Virus record (IMG/VR): IMGVR_UViG_3300043773_000923
Coordinates: 1 to 41,136 of that record
Source of the DNA: a virus
Length of the DNA stretch: 41,136 nucleotides
Strand: one strand, 5' to 3'
Each line of letters opens with the position of its first letter. The first letter of the stretch is position 1. Of this stretch, positions 24,572 to 37,861 are shown in pieces. Under the pieces are notes generated by a model. The model was not told where the DNA came from, made no database searches, and saw nothing but the letters and a program-made list of their open reading frames with translations. The position numbers and the translations under genes are program-made.

Positions 24572-25147
24572 ATGAAAACTGTTGGAGAAAGACTTGAACC
24601 ATTTGTGGTGACTGGTGTCAAACCAGGAGCACTAACACCTGACGATGCCTTTGAATCAATTAATGAAGGATCTTTTGGTGGTAAATGGAAAGTGATTGTA
24701 TTTTATCCTAAAGATTTTACTTTTGTATGTCCGACTGAAATTGTTGCATATGACAAGTTAAATCAGGATTTCGCTGATCGTGATGCTGTTCTTTTAATTG
24801 GTAGCACAGATAATGAGTTTTGTAAATTGGCTTGGCGTGCTGCGCATGAAGATCTAAAGAAAACAAACAGCTGGATGTTTGCAGATACAATTCGTGGTGG
24901 GTTGTGGGATGAACATAATGATAAGTATCGTAGTGGTCTTGCTGAACAACTTGGCATTTTCTACGAACCAGCAGGTGCTGCTTTGCGTGCAACATTTATT
25001 GTTGACCCAGCTAATGAGATTCAACATGTTACTGTTAATAATTTGAATGTTGGTCGTAATCCAGAAGAAACTCTACGTATTCTTGACGCACTTCAAACTG
25101 GAGAGCTCTGCGCATGTAATCGTAAAGTTGGTGGCGAGACACTCTAA
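24572..25147 (+). CDS. ahpC: Peroxiredoxin, AhpC type (2-Cys, actinobacterial-like C-terminus)
   Basis: 191 residues. Reduces hydrogen peroxide and alkyl peroxides. The peroxidatic site is FTFVCPTEI with C53. The resolving end reads GELCACNRK with C180 and C182, the two-Cys arrangement of mycobacterial AhpC (C174/C176), whose partner is AhpD; an AhpD homologue is encoded two genes downstream, so the pair makes biochemical sense. GGAG precedes the ATG. The operon ahpC-SGNH-ahpD has one-base and ATGA overlaps throughout. Confidence 0.92.
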   Translation: MKTVGERLEPFVVTGVKPGALTPDDAFESINEGSFGGKWKVIVFYPKDFTFVCPTEIVAYDKLNQDFADRDAVLLIGSTDNEFCKLAWRAAHEDLKKTNSWMFADTIRGGLWDEHNDKYRSGLAEQLGIFYEPAGAALRATFIVDPANEIQHVTVNNLNVGRNPEETLRILDALQTGELCACNRKVGGETL

Positions 25148-25545
25148 TGATTGAGTGTTTAGTAATGGGTGATTCTATTGCTGTTGGTACTGCGTACTTT
25201 CGAAAAGAGTGCGCAGTAGTTGCCAAGTCTGGAATTAATTCGACAGATTGGAGAAAGAAACATTTATCTTCAATGCCAGAATCTAAAACAACAATCATTT
25301 CTTTGGGTAGCAACGATTGGGATAAGATGACATCTAAGAACTTACACGAGATTCGTAGTAAGATTCAAGGCAAAGTCTATTGGATATTACCATCAGCAAC
25401 TCGTAAACCACAAGAACGACAAGTGGTTATTGAGATTGCTAATGAATTTAAAGATTCTATTGTTGATCGACCAAAAGAAATATCAGCTGATGGTATTCAT
25501 CCAACATTCAATGGATATAAAGAACTAGCGGAAAAAACAAAATGA
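25147..25545 (+). CDS. SGNH/GDSL-type hydrolase (small)
   Basis: 132 residues. The four SGNH blocks are recognisable: G8-D9-S10 (VMGDSIAVG), a Gly near 29 (KSGINS), G54-S55-N56-D57 (SLGSNDW) and D115-G-I-H118 (ADGIHPT). Such enzymes cleave esters or acyl groups of lipids, sugars or peptidoglycan. The protein is short for the family (usually about 180-200), so it is a minimal version. Sandwiched between ahpC and ahpD with overlapping ends, it may act on peroxidised or acylated envelope molecules; that is inference. Confidence 0.78.
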   Translation: MIECLVMGDSIAVGTAYFRKECAVVAKSGINSTDWRKKHLSSMPESKTTIISLGSNDWDKMTSKNLHEIRSKIQGKVYWILPSATRKPQERQVVIEIANEFKDSIVDRPKEISADGIHPTFNGYKELAEKTK

Positions 25546-26048
25546 GTTTCATAGAATCAGTAAAACAAGCATTACCAGATTATGCTAAGGACACAAAACT
25601 TAATCTAGATGCAGTTCTTTTACGTAGCACTCTAGATGTTGATGAAGCAATTGGTTGTGCCGTAGCAGCATTGGCTGCAACTGGTAATGGTAAACTATTA
25701 AGTGTTTTGCTGGCAGACGCACCTGCTGATGCAAACGCAGCAATGACTGCTGCAAGTTTGATGGCACAAAACAATATATGGTATCCATATATTGAGATGG
25801 TTGACGACCCTTCGTTGGCTGGACTACCTGCACAATTGCGTATGAATGCGATTGCGACACATGGTGGAACTACGAAAGAGAGATTCGAATCGTATTCTCT
25901 TGCTGCAAGTATTGTTGGTAAGTGTCACTTCTGCGTAAAGGCACACTACGATGGGTTGAAGAAAATGGGTTACTCTGTAGAACAACTTCGTGATATTGGT
26001 CGTATTGCTGCAGTTATGAATGCGTGCGCTAAAGTGCTAAATAGTTAA
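25542..26048 (+). CDS. ahpD: AhpD-family alkylhydroperoxidase / AhpC reductase
   Basis: 168 residues, all-helical. The core GKCHFCVKAHYDGLKKMGYS holds C128-x-x-C131 and H135; E116 lies 12 residues before C128, as E118 does in the mycobacterial enzyme. The His of the C-S-H-C motif is replaced (here C-H-F-C). In mycobacteria AhpD receives electrons from dihydrolipoamide and reduces AhpC. The stop is preceded by a CTAAATA element. It is the last gene before the tmRNA acceptor piece. Confidence 0.88.
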   Translation: MSFIESVKQALPDYAKDTKLNLDAVLLRSTLDVDEAIGCAVAALAATGNGKLLSVLLADAPADANAAMTAASLMAQNNIWYPYIEMVDDPSLAGLPAQLRMNAIATHGGTTKERFESYSLAASIVGKCHFCVKAHYDGLKKMGYSVEQLRDIGRIAAVMNACAKVLNS

Positions 26049-26149
26049 TATGGATGAAACAGAATTAAAACTTAGAGAACTGTATATACAGACTGCGAAG
26101 TCTATTGTTGCGTTTATACGAGCAAGACACTTCGGGCACTGTTAAGAAA

Positions 26150-26213
26150 TTGTTGTAATCCCTTCAAAACGAAGGCATGTTGGACGGGAGTTCGATTCTC
26201 CCCACCTCCACCA
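26150..26213 (+). ncRNA. ssrA: Permuted tmRNA, acceptor (3') piece; 5' end approximate
   Basis: The end reads as a tRNA-like 3' half: T-stem GGGAG (26186-26190), T-loop TTCGATT, CTCCC (26198-26202), acceptor strand CACCTCC (26203-26209) and ACCA (26210-26213). CACCTCC pairs with GGGGGTG at the start of the coding piece (26422-26428), including the G-U third pair typical of tmRNA. A hairpin CCTTC/GAAGG (26161-26175) and a TGTTG that can pair with CAACA at 26463 precede it. No anticodon arm or tRNA 5' half lies upstream, so it is not a tRNA. Confidence 0.75.
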
Positions 26214-26225
26214 TAAGGAAATTTA

Positions 26226-26420
26226 ATGAATATTGAACAACATTTTAAAGGTCAACTAGATAGTGGTGCTACTACTATGTTTTTTTACGGACTCGAAAAT
26301 CAAGACCAAAGTAAGGTCGAAATTAAAAGTCACAAAGGAACATTGTTAGAGTTTCCTGCTACACTAGAATACATTAGACATTTGAGTGAAAGTATACCGT
26401 TGTTCAAAGTTTCTTTATGA
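26226..26420 (+). CDS. 64-aa protein encoded between the two tmRNA pieces
   Basis: Starts MNIEQHFKGQLDSGATTMFF and ends at TGA 26418-26420, one base before the tmRNA coding piece. AAGGA at 26215-26219, just after the CCA of the acceptor piece, is six bases from the ATG. The protein is soluble, about half polar, with a TLEYIRHLSESIPLFKVSL tail. Family not recognised. It fills nearly all of the segment normally cut out of a permuted pre-tmRNA, so the excised spacer could also serve as its mRNA. Confidence 0.65.
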   Translation: MNIEQHFKGQLDSGATTMFFYGLENQDQSKVEIKSHKGTLLEFPATLEYIRHLSESIPLFKVSL

Positions 26421-26421
26421 T

Positions 26422-26660
26422 GGGGGTGACTAGGTTTCGACAGCGTGAGATAGTAGAGACGGCAACACGAGAGTTGACTGACGTAATCAGCAAAAATCAA
26501 AGTAAACGCAAACGATGAAGTTTACGCATTGGCAGCTTAATTGCTGACTAGGGTTCGCTGGGTTTCCTCGTAACAGAATACCCAGCAATTATAAATAAAG
26601 ATATCCAGAGTAAATGGATCATGGTGATAGTAACCATGTAAAAAACTATCAACACTTACA
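26422..26660 (+). ncRNA. ssrA: Permuted tmRNA, coding (5') piece with tag ANDEVYALAA
   Basis: Begins GGGGGTGACTAGGTTTCGAC, the classic tmRNA 5' end. A CTGA/TCAG hairpin with TTGA...TCAA pairing stands where PK1 is expected. The tag frame runs GCA 26508 to TAA 26538-26540 and encodes ANDEVYALAA, close to the ANDENYALAA tag of E. coli. After it GCTGGGT/ACCCAGC form a hairpin, and ATGGT/ACCAT with GATAGT/ACTATC (26621-26650) form an H-type pseudoknot. The 3' end is approximate. Order in the gene is acceptor piece, spacer gene, coding piece: circularly permuted. Confidence 0.85.
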
Positions 26661-27022: not shown

Positions 27023-27580
27023 ATGAAACACTTAATAGCAATTATACTAACATTAATTCTTATTGTATATCTGCTAATACATGGAACATCGAGAGCATTT
27101 CAAGTTTCAACAACAGTAAATGTTCCGTATAAATTTTTAAATGCCTCTGAAAGAAAAGAAATTGATTGTCTCGCAGACAACATTTACTATGAGGCTGGGT
27201 ACGAACCAAAAGAAGGAATGGTAGCTGTAGCTACTGTAACATTAAATCGTGTAAAAACAAATTTATTTGCAGATACTGTTTGTGGTGTTGTAAAGCAAAA
27301 GACACAAGGAACCTGTCAATTTACATGGTTGTGTGATGGTTCTCACAAACGCAACCCAAATCCTGACATGTATGAACAAGCAAGGCAAATTGCATTATAT
27401 GTATACTTCAACCACACAGTAATAGAAGACATAACAAAGGGTGCTATATATTATCATGCCGATTATGTTTCTCCTGGATGGAATCATCTAAAGAAAACAA
27501 TTAAAATCGGTCGTCATATTTTTTACACTGATCCGAAAGTGAGAAATGATTATGCTACAAAAACTCAATATAAAACTTGA
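27023..27580 (+). CDS. SleB/CwlJ-type cell-wall hydrolase with N-terminal anchor
   Basis: 185 residues. An N-terminal hydrophobic helix (about 3-20) acts as signal anchor. The Hydrolase_2 (SleB) domain follows: LADNIYYEAGYEPKEGMVAVATVTLNRV, CQFTW, YYHADYVSPGW and IGRHIFY. The E of YYEAG is the expected catalytic residue. Family members are peptidoglycan amidases or transglycosylases. With the signal anchor it could act from the periplasm, unlike the GH19 endolysin. AAGGAG precedes the ATG; the end overlaps the ClpP-like gene by 35 bases. Confidence 0.85.
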   Translation: MKHLIAIILTLILIVYLLIHGTSRAFQVSTTVNVPYKFLNASERKEIDCLADNIYYEAGYEPKEGMVAVATVTLNRVKTNLFADTVCGVVKQKTQGTCQFTWLCDGSHKRNPNPDMYEQARQIALYVYFNHTVIEDITKGAIYYHADYVSPGWNHLKKTIKIGRHIFYTDPKVRNDYATKTQYKT

Positions 27581-28112
27581 TTCGAAAGAAAATTCTAATC
27601 AAAATTTTTTGCTATTTATGGATGAAGTAACTACTTCTTCTTGCAAGAATATAGTTGAATGGATTTTTACTTGTAATTTTGATGAGCATAATTATGAAAT
27701 GCTTAATTTAATTATATGTTCTCCAGGTGGAGATTTAAATGCTGCATTTGCAGTAATTGACACAATGAAAGGAAGTCATGTTCCAGTAAGAACAATTGGT
27801 CTCGGTCAAATTGCTTCCGCTGGTTTATTGATGTTTATTGCTGGTGAGCCAGGACATAGAATTTTAACACCAAACACATCAATACTTTCTCATCAATATT
27901 CATGGGGATCATATGGCAAAGAACATGAATTGTTTGCACAAGTTAAAGAATTTGATTTAACAACCAAAAGAATGATTAACCACTATAAAAAGTGCACTGG
28001 ATTAAAAGAAGAACAAATTCGTGAAGTGTTGCTGCCACCGCAAGATATATGGTTGTCGGCACAAGAAGCAAAAAAATTAAATTTATGTGATCAAGTAAAG
28101 GACTTATACTAA
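27546..28112 (+). CDS. ClpP-like serine protease
   Basis: 188 residues (186 if the second ATG at 27552 is used). The ClpP fold motifs are present: CSPGGDLNAAFAVIDTM, nucleophile S91 (GQIASAGLLMF), H116 (SILSHQYSWG) and D167 (PPQDIWLSAQEAKKLNLCDQV), a complete Ser-His-Asp triad. Phage ClpP-like enzymes are often prohead proteases, but here no capsid gene is near, so degradation of host or phage proteins, perhaps of tmRNA-tagged ones, is possible. The last base of the stop overlaps the next ATG. Confidence 0.88.
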   Translation: MIMLQKLNIKLDSKENSNQNFLLFMDEVTTSSCKNIVEWIFTCNFDEHNYEMLNLIICSPGGDLNAAFAVIDTMKGSHVPVRTIGLGQIASAGLLMFIAGEPGHRILTPNTSILSHQYSWGSYGKEHELFAQVKEFDLTTKRMINHYKKCTGLKEEQIREVLLPPQDIWLSAQEAKKLNLCDQVKDLY

Positions 28113-34274: not shown

Positions 34275-34350
34275 GCTCCGTTCGTCTATCGGTTAGGACA
34301 CTGCCCTTTCACGGCAGTAAGGAGGGGTTCGATTCCCCCACGGAGTACCA
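34275..34350 (+). tRNA. tRNA-Glu (UUC)
   Basis: Acceptor GCTCCGT/ACGGAGT, anticodon arm CTGCC CTTTCAC GGCAG (anticodon TTC), T-arm GGGGG TTCGATT CCCCC, encoded CCA. First gene of the array. Confidence 0.93.
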
Positions 34351-34353
34351 TTA

Positions 34354-34461
34354 GTTCTGTTGATGTAAGCGATGGGCTTGATCATGCCTGACTAACTATG
34401 ATGATAAGATGTAATTCTAGATAAAGCATATGAGTCATAGCAAACAGTGCGTCAACAGAAC
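34354..34461 (+). ncRNA. Structured non-tRNA element 1 in the tRNA array
   Basis: Closed by a perfect ten-pair stem GTTCTGTTGA (34354-34363) / TCAACAGAAC (34452-34461), extendable by four pairs including two G-U. Inside, CTATGA (34396) pairs with TCATAG (34435). No T-loop or anticodon arm and no open frame with a ribosome site. Looks like a small folded RNA processed with the tRNAs. Confidence 0.5.
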
Positions 34462-34464
34462 CAA

Positions 34465-34500
34465 TGGTAGTAGACTCGTCGGGAGACGCTCAGGCTACCA
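34465..34500 (+). ncRNA. Two-tier hairpin next to element 1
   Basis: TGGTAG (34465-34470) / CTACCA (34495-34500) enclose a second stem CGTC-GGGA-GACG (34477-34488) with two symmetrical six-base internal strands. It ends in CCACCA like a tRNA but lacks all tRNA arms. Confidence 0.4.
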
Positions 34501-34509
34501 CCAAATTTT

Positions 34510-34583
34510 GCGGGATTAGTTTAATGGTAAAACGGCAGTCTTCCAAACTTCAGTCGTGAGTTCGATTCTCACATTCCGCTCCA
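34510..34583 (+). tRNA. tRNA-Gly (UCC)
   Basis: Acceptor GCGGGAT/ATTCCGC, loop CTTCCAA (anticodon TCC) on a stem with one C-T mismatch, T-arm GTGAG TTCGATT CTCAC, encoded CCA. Confidence 0.9.
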
Positions 34584-34590
34584 CTTATAT

Positions 34591-34683
34591 GGGTGTGTTG
34601 ATGCTATGGCGTGTGCATCCTCGGACTGTAAATCCGATCCCTCTGGGTAAACATTGTTGGTTCGACTCCAACCACACCCACCA
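34591..34683 (+). tRNA. tRNA-Tyr (GUA)
   Basis: Acceptor GGGTGTG/CACACCC, anticodon arm TCGGA CTGTAAA TCCGA (GTA), long variable arm as in bacterial tRNA-Tyr, T-arm GTTGG TTCGACT CCAAC, encoded CCA. Confidence 0.92.
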
Positions 34684-34688
34684 TATAA

Positions 34689-34763
34689 GGTTCCAAAGTG
34701 TTCATGGACGCACATATGCCTGTCACGCATAAAGAAGGGGATCGTTACCCCTTGGGACCGCCA
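34689..34763 (+). tRNA. tRNA-Asp (GUC), unusual T-loop
   Basis: Acceptor GGTTCCA/TGGGACC, anticodon arm TATGC CTGTCAC GCATA (GTC), discriminator G, encoded CCA. The T-arm is AGGGG ATCGTTA CCCCT: positions 54 and 58 are A and T instead of the near-invariant T and A. Confidence 0.85.
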
Positions 34764-34769
34764 AGTTTT

Positions 34770-34842
34770 GCGGAGTAGAGAAATGGTATCTCGAGAGTTT
34801 CATATGCTCTAGTTGTTGGTTCGATTCCATCCTCCGCTACCA
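34770..34842 (+). tRNA. tRNA with CAU anticodon (Met, fMet or Ile2)
   Basis: Anticodon arm AGAGT TTCATAT GCTCT (CAT). GCGGAG pairs with CTCCGC; the base before (T34769) faces T72, so a 1-72 mismatch like that of initiator tRNA is possible, but the three G-C pairs of initiator anticodon stems are missing. Encoded ACCA. Confidence 0.75.
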
Positions 34843-34849
34843 GTTTTGT

Positions 34850-34925
34850 TGTCTAGTAGCTCAGTCGGTAGAGTAGGTGACTGTTAATCACTTGGTCGGT
34901 GGTTCGAGCCCACCCTAGACAGCCA
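34850..34925 (+). tRNA. tRNA-Asn (GUU)
   Basis: Acceptor TGTCTAG/CTAGACA, discriminator G, anticodon arm GGTGA CTGTTAA TCACT (GTT), T-arm GGTGG TTCGAGC CCACC, encoded CCA. Confidence 0.93.
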
Positions 34926-34929
34926 ATTT

Positions 34930-35005
34930 GCCCTAGTAACTCAGTTGGTAGAGTAACTGCCTTGTAAGCAGTAAGTCGGGAGTTCGAGTCTCTCCTGGGG
35001 CACCA
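34930..35005 (+). tRNA. tRNA-Thr (UGU)
   Basis: Acceptor GCCCTAG/CTGGGGC, anticodon arm ACTGC CTTGTAA GCAGT (TGT), T-arm with TTCGAGT loop, encoded CCA. Confidence 0.92.
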
Positions 35006-35011
35006 GTTTAT

Positions 35012-35088
35012 CGGAGTATAGCGCAGTCTGGTAGCGCATCTGCTTTGGGAGCAGAGGGTCGCAGGTTCGAACCCTGCTACTCCGACCA
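35012..35088 (+). tRNA. tRNA-Pro (UGG)
   Basis: Acceptor CGGAGTA/TACTCCG, anticodon arm TCTGC TTTGGGA GCAGA (TGG), T-arm GCAGG TTCGAAC CCTGC, encoded CCA. Confidence 0.93.
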
Positions 35089-35095
35089 TCGATAT

Positions 35096-35169
35096 GGGGA
35101 ATTAGTTAAATGGGATAACATCGGCTTTGCAAGCCGAGATTGAGAGTTCGATTCTCTCATTCTCCACCA
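35096..35169 (+). tRNA. tRNA-Ala (UGC)
   Basis: Acceptor GGGGAAT/ATTCTCC, anticodon arm TCGGC TTTGCAA GCCGA (TGC), T-arm GAGAG TTCGATT CTCTC, encoded CCA. The G3-T70 wobble pair that marks tRNA-Ala is present. Confidence 0.92.
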
Positions 35170-35380
35170 AACCTGCAGCTAACCACTGCTAGTGTGATCC
35201 GCACGAGAGAAACTGATTGGCGATCAGTAGGATGGTTCTCCCTTTGAATAGGGTATGAGTAAAATCATAGGTCTACCTAACCAGCGTTGGCGACACGAGA
35301 GTTCTTTCTGGTCGGGAAGTGGGTGGAAGGTGTAAGTGATGAGTTGCAACTCTGATACACTATAATTACCACCGCAGAAA
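35170..35380 (+). other. Gene-free, hairpin-rich stretch in the tRNA array
   Basis: About 210 bases with no convincing frame. Hairpins include ACTGAT-TGGCG-ATCAGT (35212-35228), CCCT-TTGAAT-AGGG (about 35240) and a GTGTA...TACAC arm that encloses the palindrome GAGTTGCAACTC (35341-35352). It probably belongs with the following structured element as one transcribed RNA. Confidence 0.45.
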
Positions 35381-35564
35381 GAAAGCATTTTTGAACGTGA
35401 ATGCAAAAGAAAAGGCAACCCCAACTGATAGGGGAGAACATCGCTACTGTCTACGTTGTCCAGTATATGGAGGTGATTACTGATGCCAAAGGTAATCTTA
35501 AAGCCCAGATGTAGTGAGCACAGGATGCTCTTAAAATCATATCAGTACGTTCAAAAATGTTTTT
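35381..35564 (+). ncRNA. Structured non-tRNA element 2 in the tRNA array
   Basis: Closed by a long-range stem: CATTTTTGAACGT (35386-35398) is exactly complementary to ACGTTCAAAAATG (35547-35559), and the pairing extends to 35381/35564 with two G-U pairs, 18 pairs in all. Inside are CCCC-AACTGATA-GGGG and GAGCA-CAGGA-TGCTC hairpins. It ends five bases before tRNA-Leu. I cannot match it to RNase P RNA, 6S or tmRNA. Confidence 0.5.
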
Positions 35565-35568
35565 GCAT

Positions 35569-35651
35569 GCCCCGATGGTGGAATTGGTAGACACGCTGGT
35601 CTTAGAAGCCAGTACTTCGGTGTGAGAGTTCGAGTCTCTCTTGGGGCACCA
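35569..35651 (+). tRNA. tRNA-Leu (UAG)
   Basis: Acceptor GCCCCGA/TTGGGGC, anticodon arm CTGGT CTTAGAA GCCAG (TAG), medium variable arm, T-arm GAGAG TTCGAGT CTCTC, encoded CCA. Confidence 0.92.
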
Positions 35652-35658
35652 TAATTTT

Positions 35659-35733
35659 GCTCAGTTAATTCAGCGGTAGAAGGTCTCCTTTACACGGAGA
35701 AGGTCGGGAGTTCGATCCTCTCACTGAGCACCA
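35659..35733 (+). tRNA. tRNA-Val (UAC)
   Basis: Acceptor GCTCAGT/ACTGAGC, anticodon arm TCTCC TTTACAC GGAGA (TAC), T-loop TTCGATC, encoded CCA. Confidence 0.93.
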
Positions 35734-35737
35734 ACAT

Positions 35738-35812
35738 ACGACTTTAGTAAAATGAATATTACACCACGCTACGAACGTGGAAGTGGGAGTTTGATTCTCT
35801 CAGGTCGTGCCA
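35738..35812 (+). tRNA. tRNA-Arg (ACG)
   Basis: Acceptor ACGACTT/AGGTCGT, anticodon arm CCACG CTACGAA CGTGG (ACG, read as ICG after deamination), T-loop TTTGATT with T instead of C at position 56, discriminator G, encoded CCA. AT-rich D-arm. Confidence 0.87.
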
Positions 35813-35816
35813 ATTT

Positions 35817-35908
35817 GGAAGTGTGGCTGAGCTGGTTTAAGGCAGCAGTCTTGAAAACTGTCGTACGTTAATAGCGTGCCGTGAGTTCGAATCTCACCAC
35901 TTCCGCCA
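35817..35908 (+). tRNA. tRNA-Ser (UGA)
   Basis: Acceptor GGAAGTG/CACTTCC, anticodon arm GCAGT CTTGAAA ACTGT (TGA), long variable arm, T-arm GTGAG TTCGAAT CTCAC, discriminator G, encoded CCA. Confidence 0.93.
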
Positions 35909-35917
35909 ACATAATTC

Positions 35918-35992
35918 AGCCGTGTAGCTCAGAGGAAGAGCATCGTCTTGATAAGGCGAGGGTCGACATTTCGAAATTGTCCATGGCTACCA
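35918..35992 (+). tRNA. tRNA-Ile (GAU)
   Basis: Acceptor AGCCGTG/CATGGCT, anticodon arm TCGTC TTGATAA GGCGA (GAT), T-loop TTCGAAA on a stem with a T-T mismatch, encoded CCA. Confidence 0.9.
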
Positions 35993-35997
35993 AATAT

Positions 35998-36071
35998 ATC
36001 TCGATAGTGTAACGGCAGCATACCAGTCTCCAAAACTGTTGGTGGGGGTTCAAATCCCTCTCGGGATGCCA
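35998..36071 (+). tRNA. tRNA-Trp (CCA)
   Basis: Acceptor ATCTCGA/TCGGGAT, anticodon loop CTCCAAA (anticodon CCA) on stem CCAGT/ACTGT, discriminator G as in bacterial tRNA-Trp, encoded CCA. Confidence 0.88.
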
Positions 36072-36076
36072 TATGT

Positions 36077-36151
36077 GGTGATGTAGCACAGTGGTAGTGC
36101 AACTGCTTCATACGCAGTAGGTCGTTGGCTCGAATCCAACCATCACCACCA
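36077..36151 (+). tRNA. tRNA with CAU anticodon (probably elongator Met)
   Basis: Acceptor GGTGATG/CATCACC, anticodon arm ACTGC TTCATAC GCAGT (CAT), T-loop CTCGAAT (C at 54), encoded ACCA. Confidence 0.85.
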
Positions 36152-36156
36152 TTTAT

Positions 36157-36231
36157 TGGGGATTCGCCAAGTTGGTAAGGCATCGGATTTTGATTCCGAC
36201 ATCGGTGGTTCGAGTCCATCATCCCCAGCCA
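36157..36231 (+). tRNA. tRNA-Gln (UUG)
   Basis: Acceptor TGGGGAT/ATCCCCA, anticodon arm TCGGA TTTTGAT TCCGA (TTG), T-loop TTCGAGT, discriminator G, encoded CCA. Confidence 0.93.
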
Positions 36232-36238
36232 ATCATTT

Positions 36239-36312
36239 GGGTGTATAACTTAGTGGCAAAGTAACTGGCTTTTAACCAGTAAACCAGAGTTCGATTCTCT
36301 GTGCGCCCACCA
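36239..36312 (+). tRNA. tRNA-Lys (UUU)
   Basis: GGG...CCC acceptor, anticodon arm ACTGG CTTTTAA CCAGT (TTT), T-arm CAGAG TTCGATT CTCTG, encoded CCA. Confidence 0.92.
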
Positions 36313-36325
36313 AAGTTTTCTTTGG

Positions 36326-36401
36326 GTTGTTCTTAGTGTAGTGGTCTGCACCTCTCGTTGTGACCGAGATAGTATGAGTTCGATCCTCATAGAACAACCC
36401 A
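36326..36401 (+). tRNA. tRNA-His (GUG) inside an extended inverted repeat
   Basis: G-1 (36326) faces C73; acceptor TTGTTCT/AGAACAA; anticodon arm TCTCG TTGTGAC CGAGA (GTG); encoded CCA at 36399-36401. The flanks continue to pair outside the gene, giving an 18-bp inverted repeat (36317-36334 with 36391-36408). Confidence 0.9.
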
Positions 36402-36413
36402 AAGAAAATTTAT

Positions 36414-36489
36414 GCAACTCTAGCTGATGTGGTCATAGCGATGGTCTGAAGAGCCATTGAAACAGGTTCGATTCCTGTGGGTTGCACCA
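36414..36489 (+). tRNA. tRNA-Phe (GAA)
   Basis: Acceptor GCAACTC/GGGTTGC, anticodon arm ATGGT CTGAAGA GCCAT (GAA), T-arm ACAGG TTCGATT CCTGT, encoded CCA. Confidence 0.92.
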
Positions 36490-36494
36490 AATAT

Positions 36495-36570
36495 GCGGAA
36501 GTAATTCAGTTGGTAGAATGTCTGCTTGCCAAGCAGAATGTCGCGAGTTCGAGCCTCGTCTTCCGCTCCA
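36495..36570 (+). tRNA. tRNA-Gly (GCC)
   Basis: GCGGAAG acceptor with CTTCCGC, anticodon arm TCTGC TTGCCAA GCAGA (GCC), T-loop TTCGAGC, encoded CCA. Second Gly isoacceptor beside UCC. Confidence 0.93.
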
Positions 36571-36590
36571 CTCTTAGGTCTTGTGGGGTA

Positions 36591-36619
36591 TTGACATTTA
36601 TTCGTTTTCGAGGTATAAT
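36591..36619 (+). promoter_or_regulatory. Consensus promoter inside the tRNA array
   Basis: TTGACA 36591-36596, 17 bp ending TTTTCGAGG, TATAAT 36614-36619. The spacer is nearly the same as at 13748. It drives the 53-aa gene and the distal tRNAs. Confidence 0.85.
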
Positions 36620-36639
36620 ATACCTTTAAGGAGAAATAA

Positions 36640-36801
36640 ATGAAAGTCTATATTCTTTTTTCTAATAAAAATGTTATCGGTGTCGCTAAAGATGAACCCG
36701 AAGCGAATCTTATGCTGTCTGAATATGAAATGGCTTTAGGTGCTGTTGATGCTGGTGATTTGTCTTTTATGGTTTGTGAGGTCGGCGAATATTGTGATTA
36801 G
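36640..36801 (+). CDS. 53-aa protein within the tRNA array
   Basis: Begins MKVYILFSNKNVIGVAKDEP, then EANLMLSEYEMALGAVDAG and an acidic end. AAGGAG at 36628-36633 is six bases before the ATG, and a perfect promoter stands upstream, so it should be strongly expressed. The start MKV-x-I-LFSN and the spacing of acidic residues suggest a compact alpha/beta fold. It has the same MKV start as the 8637 gene, otherwise no similarity. No family recognised. Confidence 0.7.
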   Translation: MKVYILFSNKNVIGVAKDEPEANLMLSEYEMALGAVDAGDLSFMVCEVGEYCD

Positions 36802-36806
36802 TTAAG

Positions 36807-36893
36807 GGAGAGTTGCCAGAGTGGTAATGGAGCGGATTGCTAATCCGTCATCGAGAAATCGGTGCATAGGTTCGAGTCCTATACTCTCCGCCA
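36807..36893 (+). tRNA. tRNA-Ser (GCU)
   Basis: Acceptor GGAGAGT/ACTCTCC, anticodon arm GCGGA TTGCTAA TCCGT (GCT), long variable arm, T-loop TTCGAGT, discriminator G, encoded CCA. Confidence 0.92.
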
Positions 36894-36898
36894 ATTTT

Positions 36899-36975
36899 GT
36901 CGCCATAGTTCAGCTGGATAGAACAACAGCCTTCTAAGCTGTGGGTCGCAGGTTCGAGTCCTGCTGGCGACGCCA
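36899..36975 (+). tRNA. tRNA-Arg (UCU)
   Basis: Acceptor GTCGCCA/TGGCGAC, anticodon arm ACAGC CTTCTAA GCTGT (TCT), T-arm GCAGG TTCGAGT CCTGC, encoded CCA. Reads AGA, the favoured Arg codon of an AT-rich phage. Confidence 0.93.
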
Positions 36976-36986
36976 TATATAATTAT

Positions 36987-37065
36987 ACCCCTGTGGACAA
37001 ATTGGTAAAGTCGTCTCTCTCAAAAGGAGAAGTTGTTCTCAGTTCGAATCTGAGCAGGGGTACCA
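36987..37065 (+). tRNA. tRNA-Leu (CAA), short variable arm
   Basis: Acceptor ACCCCTG/CAGGGGT, anticodon arm TCTCT CTCAAAA GGAGA (CAA), T-arm CTCAG TTCGAAT CTGAG, encoded CCA. The variable region is only about seven bases, short for a Leu tRNA. Confidence 0.82.
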
Positions 37066-37070
37066 AATTT

Positions 37071-37145
37071 GGGCTGGTAGCTTAATGGTAAAGCAGCCGA
37101 CTCATAATCGGTTGAGTGAGAGTTCAATTCTCTCCCAGCCCACCA
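37071..37145 (+). tRNA. tRNA with CAU anticodon (Met or Ile2)
   Basis: Acceptor GGGCTGG/CCAGCCC, anticodon arm GCCGA CTCATAA TCGGT (CAT), T-loop TTCAATT, encoded ACCA. Third CAU tRNA of the array; one of the three is likely to need lysidine to read ATA. Confidence 0.85.
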
Positions 37146-37159
37146 TTAATGGAGATAAC

Positions 37160-37693
37160 ATGCAACTAAAAGATTATGTAAAAGTATATAACGTAGTGCC
37201 AAAAGATGTATGTGATTCGGTGATATTGTTATACGAAAACGATGAAGAATGGAAAACTCACAATTGGTATAACAATGTTTCTGATGAAAAGAAAGCACAC
37301 CACACAAAAGAACTTGATGTTCTTTATAATAAAAATTTAGATATTCTAAAAAATTTTTTACAAAGTGCTTTACATAAATACTATGATGAGTTAAAAATAA
37401 GTAACTTAGTTAGTAATCATAGTAACATAAGATTAAACAAGTATAAGACAGGAACTGTAATGTCAGAACATTTTGATTTGATAAGAAGAAATAAACAAGA
37501 TGGAATACCTGTTCTTACATTTCTTGGTAGTTTAAATGATAATTTTAAAGGTGGACAATTTGTTATAAACAACGAGGTATTAAAATTAAAGCAAGGAGAT
37601 ATTGTTGTGTTTCCTTCTACATTTTTATATCCGCATAGTGTTAAAGAGGTAACTGAGGGAACAAGATATACATTTGTTGCTTGGGCATATTAA
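37160..37693 (+). CDS. 2-oxoglutarate/Fe(II) oxygenase (prolyl-4-hydroxylase-like)
   Basis: 177 residues. Fe(II) ligands H104-x-D106 (MSEHFDLI) and H159 (YPHSV), with R169 (GTRYTFVAW) to bind 2-oxoglutarate, in the usual P4Hc spacing; FLGSLNDNFKGGQFVINNE is typical of this family. GGAG lies eight bases before ATG 37160; the open frame upstream is tRNA sequence. The gene is inserted between two tRNAs, so it shares their transcript. The target could be a protein, a nucleic acid or a small molecule. Confidence 0.82.
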   Translation: MQLKDYVKVYNVVPKDVCDSVILLYENDEEWKTHNWYNNVSDEKKAHHTKELDVLYNKNLDILKNFLQSALHKYYDELKISNLVSNHSNIRLNKYKTGTVMSEHFDLIRRNKQDGIPVLTFLGSLNDNFKGGQFVINNEVLKLKQGDIVVFPSTFLYPHSVKEVTEGTRYTFVAWAY

Positions 37694-37694
37694 T

Positions 37695-37772
37695 GTTGGG
37701 GTGCCAGAGAGGTTTAATGGCGCAGTCTGCAAAACTGTCGATTCGTGGGTTCGAATCCCACCCTCAACTCCA
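37695..37772 (+). tRNA. tRNA-Cys (GCA)
   Basis: Acceptor GTTGGGG/CCTCAAC region, anticodon arm GCAGT CTGCAAA ACTGT (GCA), T-arm GTGGG TTCGAAT CCCAC, encoded CCA. Confidence 0.88.
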
Positions 37773-37778
37773 AACAAT

Positions 37779-37861
37779 GCGGATGTGGTGAAATAGGTAA
37801 ACACAAGGGACTTAAAATCCCTCGCTTCGGCTTGTCGGTTCGATTCCGACCATCCGCACCA
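37779..37861 (+). tRNA. tRNA-Leu (UAA)
   Basis: Acceptor GCGGATG/CATCCGC, anticodon arm AGGGA CTTAAAA TCCCT (TAA), variable arm with a TTCG tetraloop, T-arm GTCGG TTCGATT CCGAC, encoded CCA. Last tRNA of the array. Confidence 0.93.

Follow-up and report, generated by a model that had tools for sequence, protein, structure and literature searches.

The window, the whole 41,136-nt stretch of phage DNA analyzed here, encodes a circularly permuted two-piece tmRNA in which the intervening segment (IVS) between the two pieces is filled by a conserved protein gene. Our preferred interpretation, to which we assign a probability of about 0.85 on the evidence of sequence comparison, is that this would be a functional permuted tmRNA of a tailed phage whose excised IVS serves as a slot for exchangeable small-protein genes. 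The comparisons establish that the tmRNA is permuted, that its passenger is coding and conserved, that a helix closing the IVS covaries and that passengers are replaced between near-identical tmRNAs. The tmRNA is of a known kind; the nested gene slot in the IVS appears to be new. That gene is the most interesting part of the locus and was overlooked in an earlier note on this DNA.

The tmRNA of the window and the gene inside it

ARAGORN places a permuted tmRNA with the tag ANDEVYALAA at 26121-26631, and two Rfam covariance models match the region over their full length and far above their cut-offs: RF01850 (beta_tmRNA) at 26110-26594 with 144.4 bits (cut-off 84, E = 2e-44) and RF04321 (tmRNA_permuted) at 26151-26540 with 136.4 bits (cut-off 47). 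The earlier note had proposed a phage-encoded, circularly permuted, two-piece tmRNA from the letters alone and had named a covariance-model search as a check; with hits to both models, and with the same arrangement kept in related phage contigs, the proposal is well supported. The roles it suggested for the RNA, rescuing ribosomes stalled on degraded host mRNA or redirecting tagging, are conjectural. On direct reading, the T-arm, acceptor strands, CCA, 208-nt gap, 5′-end at 26422 and tag frame that it described all lie where it placed them, and the acceptor pairing it had recognized, CACCTCC with GGGGGTG over seven positions and a G-U at pair three, holds at 7/7, the G-U recurring in 49/49 relatives. 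The length it gave for the gap is likewise correct, but the gap is more than the spacer it was taken for, since a protein gene runs from 26226 to 26420. The features of the locus are as follows.

26151..26213 (+): tmRNA acceptor piece, from the start of the RF04321 match and the sequence; the 5′ limit is model-derived
26186-26202 (+): T-arm GGGAG-TTCGATT-CTCCC, read from the sequence
26203-26209 (+): acceptor 3′ strand CACCTCC, followed by A and the encoded CCA (26211-26213)
26213..26221 (+): 5′ arm of the IVS stem, AUAAGGAAA, beginning at the A of CCA and holding UAAGGA; from the covarying helix and the predicted fold
26214..26421 (+): IVS, 208 nt, between the encoded CCA and the 7/7-paired GGGGGTG; not in the mature tmRNA
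26226..26420 (+): nested protein gene, 64 aa (MNIEQHFKGQ...PLFKVSL), from the ORF, homologues, purifying selection and AlphaFold
26410..26418 (+): 3′ arm of the IVS stem, UUUCUUUAU, from the same covarying helix; shared with the final codons and the stop of the nested gene
26419..26421 (+): conserved GAU linker, immediately 5′ of the mature 5′-end; present in 44/49 tmRNAs
26422..26594 (+): tmRNA coding piece, with the acceptor 5′ strand, tag frame and structured region; 3′ limit from RF01850, whereas ARAGORN reaches 26631
26422-26428 (+): acceptor 5′ strand GGGGGTG, pairing 7/7 with CACCTCC, G-U at pair 3
26508..26540 (+): tag frame GCA...TAA, ANDEVYALAA and stop, from ARAGORN and translation

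The G-U at acceptor pair 3 is the alanine identity element, and across relatives pairs 4-6 of the same stem covary. The RF01850 alignment spans the pseudoknot region of the coding piece with 3′ deletions, the model itself being without pseudoknots. RF04321 also matches above its cut-off and at full length in all 50 related records tested, and the two-piece arrangement is conserved in related phage contigs. No SmpB was found in any of 50 related phage records, many of them fragments and several longer than 200 kb, and host SmpB would therefore be needed. An assembly artefact was considered and excluded, because a contig independent of the window is 100% identical over 4.8 kb and because the arrangement recurs in unrelated contigs.

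The window IVS is almost wholly a single 64-codon ORF. A Shine-Dalgarno-like UAAGGA (26214-26219) follows CCA without a gap, and the UGA stop (26418-26420) ends one base before the mature 5′-end. Close homologues of the encoded protein occur in 10 IMG/VR contigs, and a profile scan extends the family to 45. A homologue is nested at the same place of a tmRNA in L006, L007, L008, L010 and the first of two tmRNA copies in L009, and the tags of L007, L008 and L010 differ from that of the window. Elsewhere the gene stands free: in L053 and L054 its end falls shortly before a tmRNA whose IVS is short, in L034 and in L013 and L023 it is ~1-1.5 kb upstream of the tmRNA, and in the remaining contigs it mostly has no tmRNA nearby. 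This distribution, nested in some phages and free-standing in others, identifies on sequence grounds a genuine phage gene family that has entered a tmRNA. Comparison of the window protein to the nested copy in L076 gives a dS of 0.74 and a dN of 0.05 (dN/dS ~0.07; 17 synonymous and 7 nonsynonymous changes), and the AlphaFold model is a small alpha/beta fold of high confidence (pLDDT 93). Searches of Pfam, PHROGs, PDB (by sequence and profile) and Foldseek returned nothing significant as to its function.

Several neighboring genes were recorded alongside the tmRNA. A ClpP-like serine protease (27546-28112, + strand; PF00574, E = 2e-30; GQIASAG and SH motifs) lies ~1 kb downstream; its closest PDB chains are ClpP, and PHROGs also matches it to head maturation proteases. 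The phage thus carries a degradation tag RNA and a ClpP homologue together. Directly upstream (24572-26048, + strand) are genes for an AhpC-type peroxiredoxin, a GDSL-like hydrolase and an AhpD-like (CMD) protein, a trio that recurs in a different order near the tmRNA of L023, and further downstream 27 clustered tRNA genes (34275-37861, + strand) cover nearly all amino acids. Phage tRNAs with a CUA anticodon, named tRNA-Pyl by ARAGORN, lie near the window-family gene in L013, L014, L015 and L029 and are probable amber suppressors.

Passengers across phage intervening segments

Pattern scans of IMG/VR for permuted tmRNAs with an IVS of 159-282 nt yielded 144 candidates, 90 with a perfect acceptor stem and 82 called permuted by ARAGORN; once near-duplicates were removed, 60 distinct permuted tmRNAs of phages remained, their IVSs 160-280 nt long. 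A sense ORF covers at least 80% of the IVS in 45 of these 60, against 2.07 predicted from dinucleotide shuffles, and the antisense control gives none of that extent. BLAST divides the 45 nested ORFs into 33 unrelated families. One passenger, in L194, is a thioredoxin (PF00085, E = 4e-21; also phrog_22), a further one matches PGDYG/phrog_419, several resemble membrane proteins and the majority have no assigned identity; among the passengers scanned against Pfam or PHROGs, none matched an endonuclease. Purifying selection acts on most reading frames within passenger families, pN/pS being mostly 0.1-0.6 in nested pairs besides the window and L076. The same pattern applied to IVSs of 283-313 nt returned chance matches only and no further nested gene, so that the slot seems limited to ~85 codons at the sensitivity of the pattern. 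Some long phage IVSs are without an ORF, and every nested-gene example comes from a metagenomic contig.

Two IVSs have an unusual internal organization. That of L202 (257 nt) holds, by eye, two consecutive short membrane-protein-like ORFs. That of L117 (238 nt) includes a second, inner acceptor-like segment, GGTGGTG...CTCCACCA, with hairpin arms of its own, which looks as if a duplicated tmRNA junction had collapsed.

Pairs of related tmRNAs with different cargo reveal how the slot is used. Over 95 nt of acceptor piece with its flank, a single base separates L090 from L187, and identity in the coding piece is 84%; their nested genes are nevertheless unrelated. L088 and L105, with coding pieces 90% and acceptor pieces 82% identical, also carry unrelated genes. 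L018 and L020 match the window at ~81% over the acceptor piece, the nested gene and the start of the coding piece; the match extends little further, and almost none of their flanks resembles that of the window. The local match in L018 and L020, together with unrelated cargo in near-identical tmRNAs, indicates a cassette that is mobile between phages and whose contents are replaced within related tmRNAs.

Rearranged loci and possible mobility genes were also seen. Two tandem permuted tmRNAs occupy L009 (1-1320), the second with a short IVS; the first, which holds the nested gene, has its coding piece broken by an insertion with a reverse-strand frame. ORFs that by eye look like HNH endonucleases (KHHIIPKHMGGTDDPSNLIELT) adjoin both tmRNAs and window-family genes in L034 (3390-4019) and L053 (2826-3377), and these are possible drivers of cassette mobility.

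Bacterial genomes and isolated phages served for comparison. A pattern scan of bacterial genome contigs was set aside, almost all among the matches listed being due to chance, and an RF04321 survey was used instead. It found a permuted tmRNA over the cut-off in 131 of 142 alphaproteobacterial genomes, with matched spans mostly of 180-270 nt and few above 320 nt. Four of the long IVSs were read: three contain no ORF over 30% of their length, and the fourth, of 106 nt, has an open frame of 33 codons that begins at a TTG and terminates within the coding piece, a frame we attribute to chance. Isolated phages with a permuted tmRNA (Menderavirus, Xanthomonas Rb1 and X1, Samunavirus and Acinetobacter BUCT628) have IVSs of 25-127 nt, mostly hairpins, in which no nested gene was found, from which it follows that the tmRNA can do without a passenger. 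A search of 50,697 phage records for the window passenger and for three more passenger families gave no match. Permuted tmRNAs unannotated in public records were encountered in L001-L004 (Samunavirus), L469 (Xanthomonas Rb1), L470 (Stenotrophomonas QDWS359), L471 (Xanthomonas X1) and L473 (Acinetobacter BUCT628).

The helix around the passenger gene

The start of the IVS, counted from the A of CCA, pairs with the nine bases preceding the GAU linker to form a 9-bp helix that extends the acceptor stem. Its pairs are standard at 95.9% in the 49 tmRNAs with nested genes, compared to a mean of 80.5% and a maximum of 85.0% when 3′ arms are swapped among sequences (0/2000 shuffles reach the observed value), and pairing drops to 51-64% when the register is slid. 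Two-sided pair changes occur at positions 1 and 5-8, and a single-sequence fold of the window recovers the helix (z = -3.3). This stem also recurs, in unchanged register and 87% paired, in short phage IVSs that are non-coding, so the stem probably predates the cargo, with the gene occupying its loop.

The ends of the passenger genes are tied to this helix. Of the 49 IVSs with an ORF, 43 have a Shine-Dalgarno-like motif, strong in 35 and weak in 8, and six have no clear one; among 12 other IVSs the motif is found in 3. In the window the motif is part of a helix that runs on into the acceptor stem; in most cases it falls within the conserved helix, and because of this position the helix may limit or time passenger translation. 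At the other end, several unrelated passengers finish in Val-Ser-Leu-stop because GUUUCUUUAUGA is the 3′ arm of the helix. We considered this ending as a shared protein motif, either a degron or an anchor, and rejected it as the coding reading of an RNA stem.

The 45 passengers fall into three classes by their stops: in 21 the frame closes 1 nt short of the predicted cleavage site, in 15 it closes 9-13 nt short, and 9 reach the site without a stop. The last (L062, L065, L071, L152, L154, L157, L174, L175 and L190) run 27-60 nt into the tmRNA coding piece, where the same bases are both protein-coding and tmRNA. Thirty frames reach the linker, and the use of the last possible stop by 21 of them exceeds the expected one third (p = 4e-5); with kinship allowed for, the enrichment persists on 23 independent cases (p ~4e-4).

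These positions suggest how the locus may work. In the primary transcript, the acceptor stem would lead through a short ACC/GAU junction into the 9-bp stem at the IVS ends, with the passenger gene as the loop. Host RNase P would cut after the GAU linker to give the 5′-end of the coding piece, host 3′-end processing would expose the CCA end, and the two tmRNA pieces would remain paired and presumably act with host SmpB. Either the precursor or the excised IVS RNA would serve as the message for the passenger, whose translation would start from a Shine-Dalgarno that abuts CCA and, in the window, stop one base before the predicted RNase P site. With the Shine-Dalgarno in the helix, initiation should be infrequent as long as the stem is closed, and a ribosome that terminates on the passenger stop would cover the acceptor strand, so that translation and maturation should interfere. 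We infer such coupling of cargo translation to tmRNA maturation from the layout of the RNA.

Alternative explanations, known systems and meaning

At only slightly less than even odds, the passenger is a plain hitch-hiker, parked like other small genes of dense phage genomes in RNA that is processed out and having no regulatory link to the tmRNA. That the 33 unrelated families have no common function and consist mostly of unassigned proteins is consistent with such parking, as are the occurrence of the window family outside tmRNAs and the exchange of cargo. The placement of the Shine-Dalgarno within the conserved helix in most cases argues for something more, and so does the enrichment of last-possible stops, which fits a constraint imposed by the RNA boundary, although that constraint could be purely architectural.

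We offer as a tentative proposal, with considerably lower odds, that the locus may be a compact expression cassette in which the hairpin loop of a pre-tmRNA takes interchangeable small proteins. Translation and maturation would compete on one RNA because the Shine-Dalgarno and the stop lie in the stem beside the RNase P site, and, as processed messages would end at or before the stop, the tmRNA could regulate its own passenger by trans-translation. A specific form of this regulation is an ArfA-like feedback, in which the message cut by RNase P would end at or before the stop and trans-translation would tag the passenger. Non-stop messages are the natural substrate of tmRNA, and ArfA provides the analogy. 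The existence of three stop classes, with 9 passengers that would become true non-stop messages after cleavage, is compatible with such feedback, but most passengers retain their stop inside the IVS, and we consider it unlikely.

That the window tmRNA has decayed, or acts as a decoy by, for example, competing with the host tmRNA, is improbable. A precedent is the tmRNA of phage DS6A, which lacks a CDS and is reported to inhibit host tmRNA (PMC11915505), and the phage records here are without SmpB; however, the window RNA retains a tag frame with an ALAA end, a full acceptor stem with the G-U at pair 3, an encoded CCA and covariation. Least credible is the view that the nested frames are not real genes and arose from long AT-rich spacers and from selection on the hairpin: the RNA helix does explain the Val-Ser-Leu-stop common to several unrelated passengers, and the usual IVS of phages and bacteria is short or does not code for protein, but the count of 45/60 against 2.07 expected with no antisense counterpart, the purifying selection, the thioredoxin domain, the free-standing phage homologues and the confident predicted fold leave this possibility strongly disfavored, given the conservation at the level of codons.

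A functional permuted tmRNA with an exchangeable gene slot, our preferred interpretation, differs from the systems already described mainly in its IVS. Permuted tmRNAs are already documented in phages: the passages of PMC9004378 consulted give 53 two-piece tmRNA structures among phage genomes and describe virus-encoded permuted ssrA, mostly from aquatic phages, with Methylophilales phage Melnitz and Pelagibacter phage Mosig among them; these passages mention no protein gene in the IVSs, unlike in the window. The RF01850 and RF04321 tmRNAs have the same order of acceptor piece, IVS and coding piece, the same 7-bp acceptor stem, tag frame and tRNA-like domain as the window; those of the 131 alphaproteobacteria have a short IVS, the few longer ones read being without a clear gene, whereas the 208-nt IVS of the window is a gene. 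A second element inside the IVS is also known from permuted tmRNAs containing a tRNA-Ala or a repetitive element, but these are single reported non-coding cases, in contrast to the 33 protein families and recurring architecture seen here (PMC11915505). Group I introns of tmRNA with LAGLIDADG homing endonuclease genes likewise place a protein gene in a segment absent from the mature RNA; there, however, the intron interrupts the T-loop region, whereas here the segment is the IVS of the permuted form, with no intron and no endonuclease match (PMC11915505). We found no earlier description of a protein gene in the IVS of a permuted tmRNA among open-access papers.

Apart from the tag, tmRNA genes are usually regarded as non-coding; for permuted genes, annotation pipelines may enter nothing in the spacer or discard one of two overlapping features. 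The recurrent slot implies that small phage proteins have gone unnoticed there, and a protein gene within a split RNA gene is a new nested-gene architecture. Translation, RNase P processing and ribosome rescue would all converge on a single short RNA, a case open to direct test, and the hairpin of the precursor would represent a natural design for co-expressing a small protein and a stable RNA.
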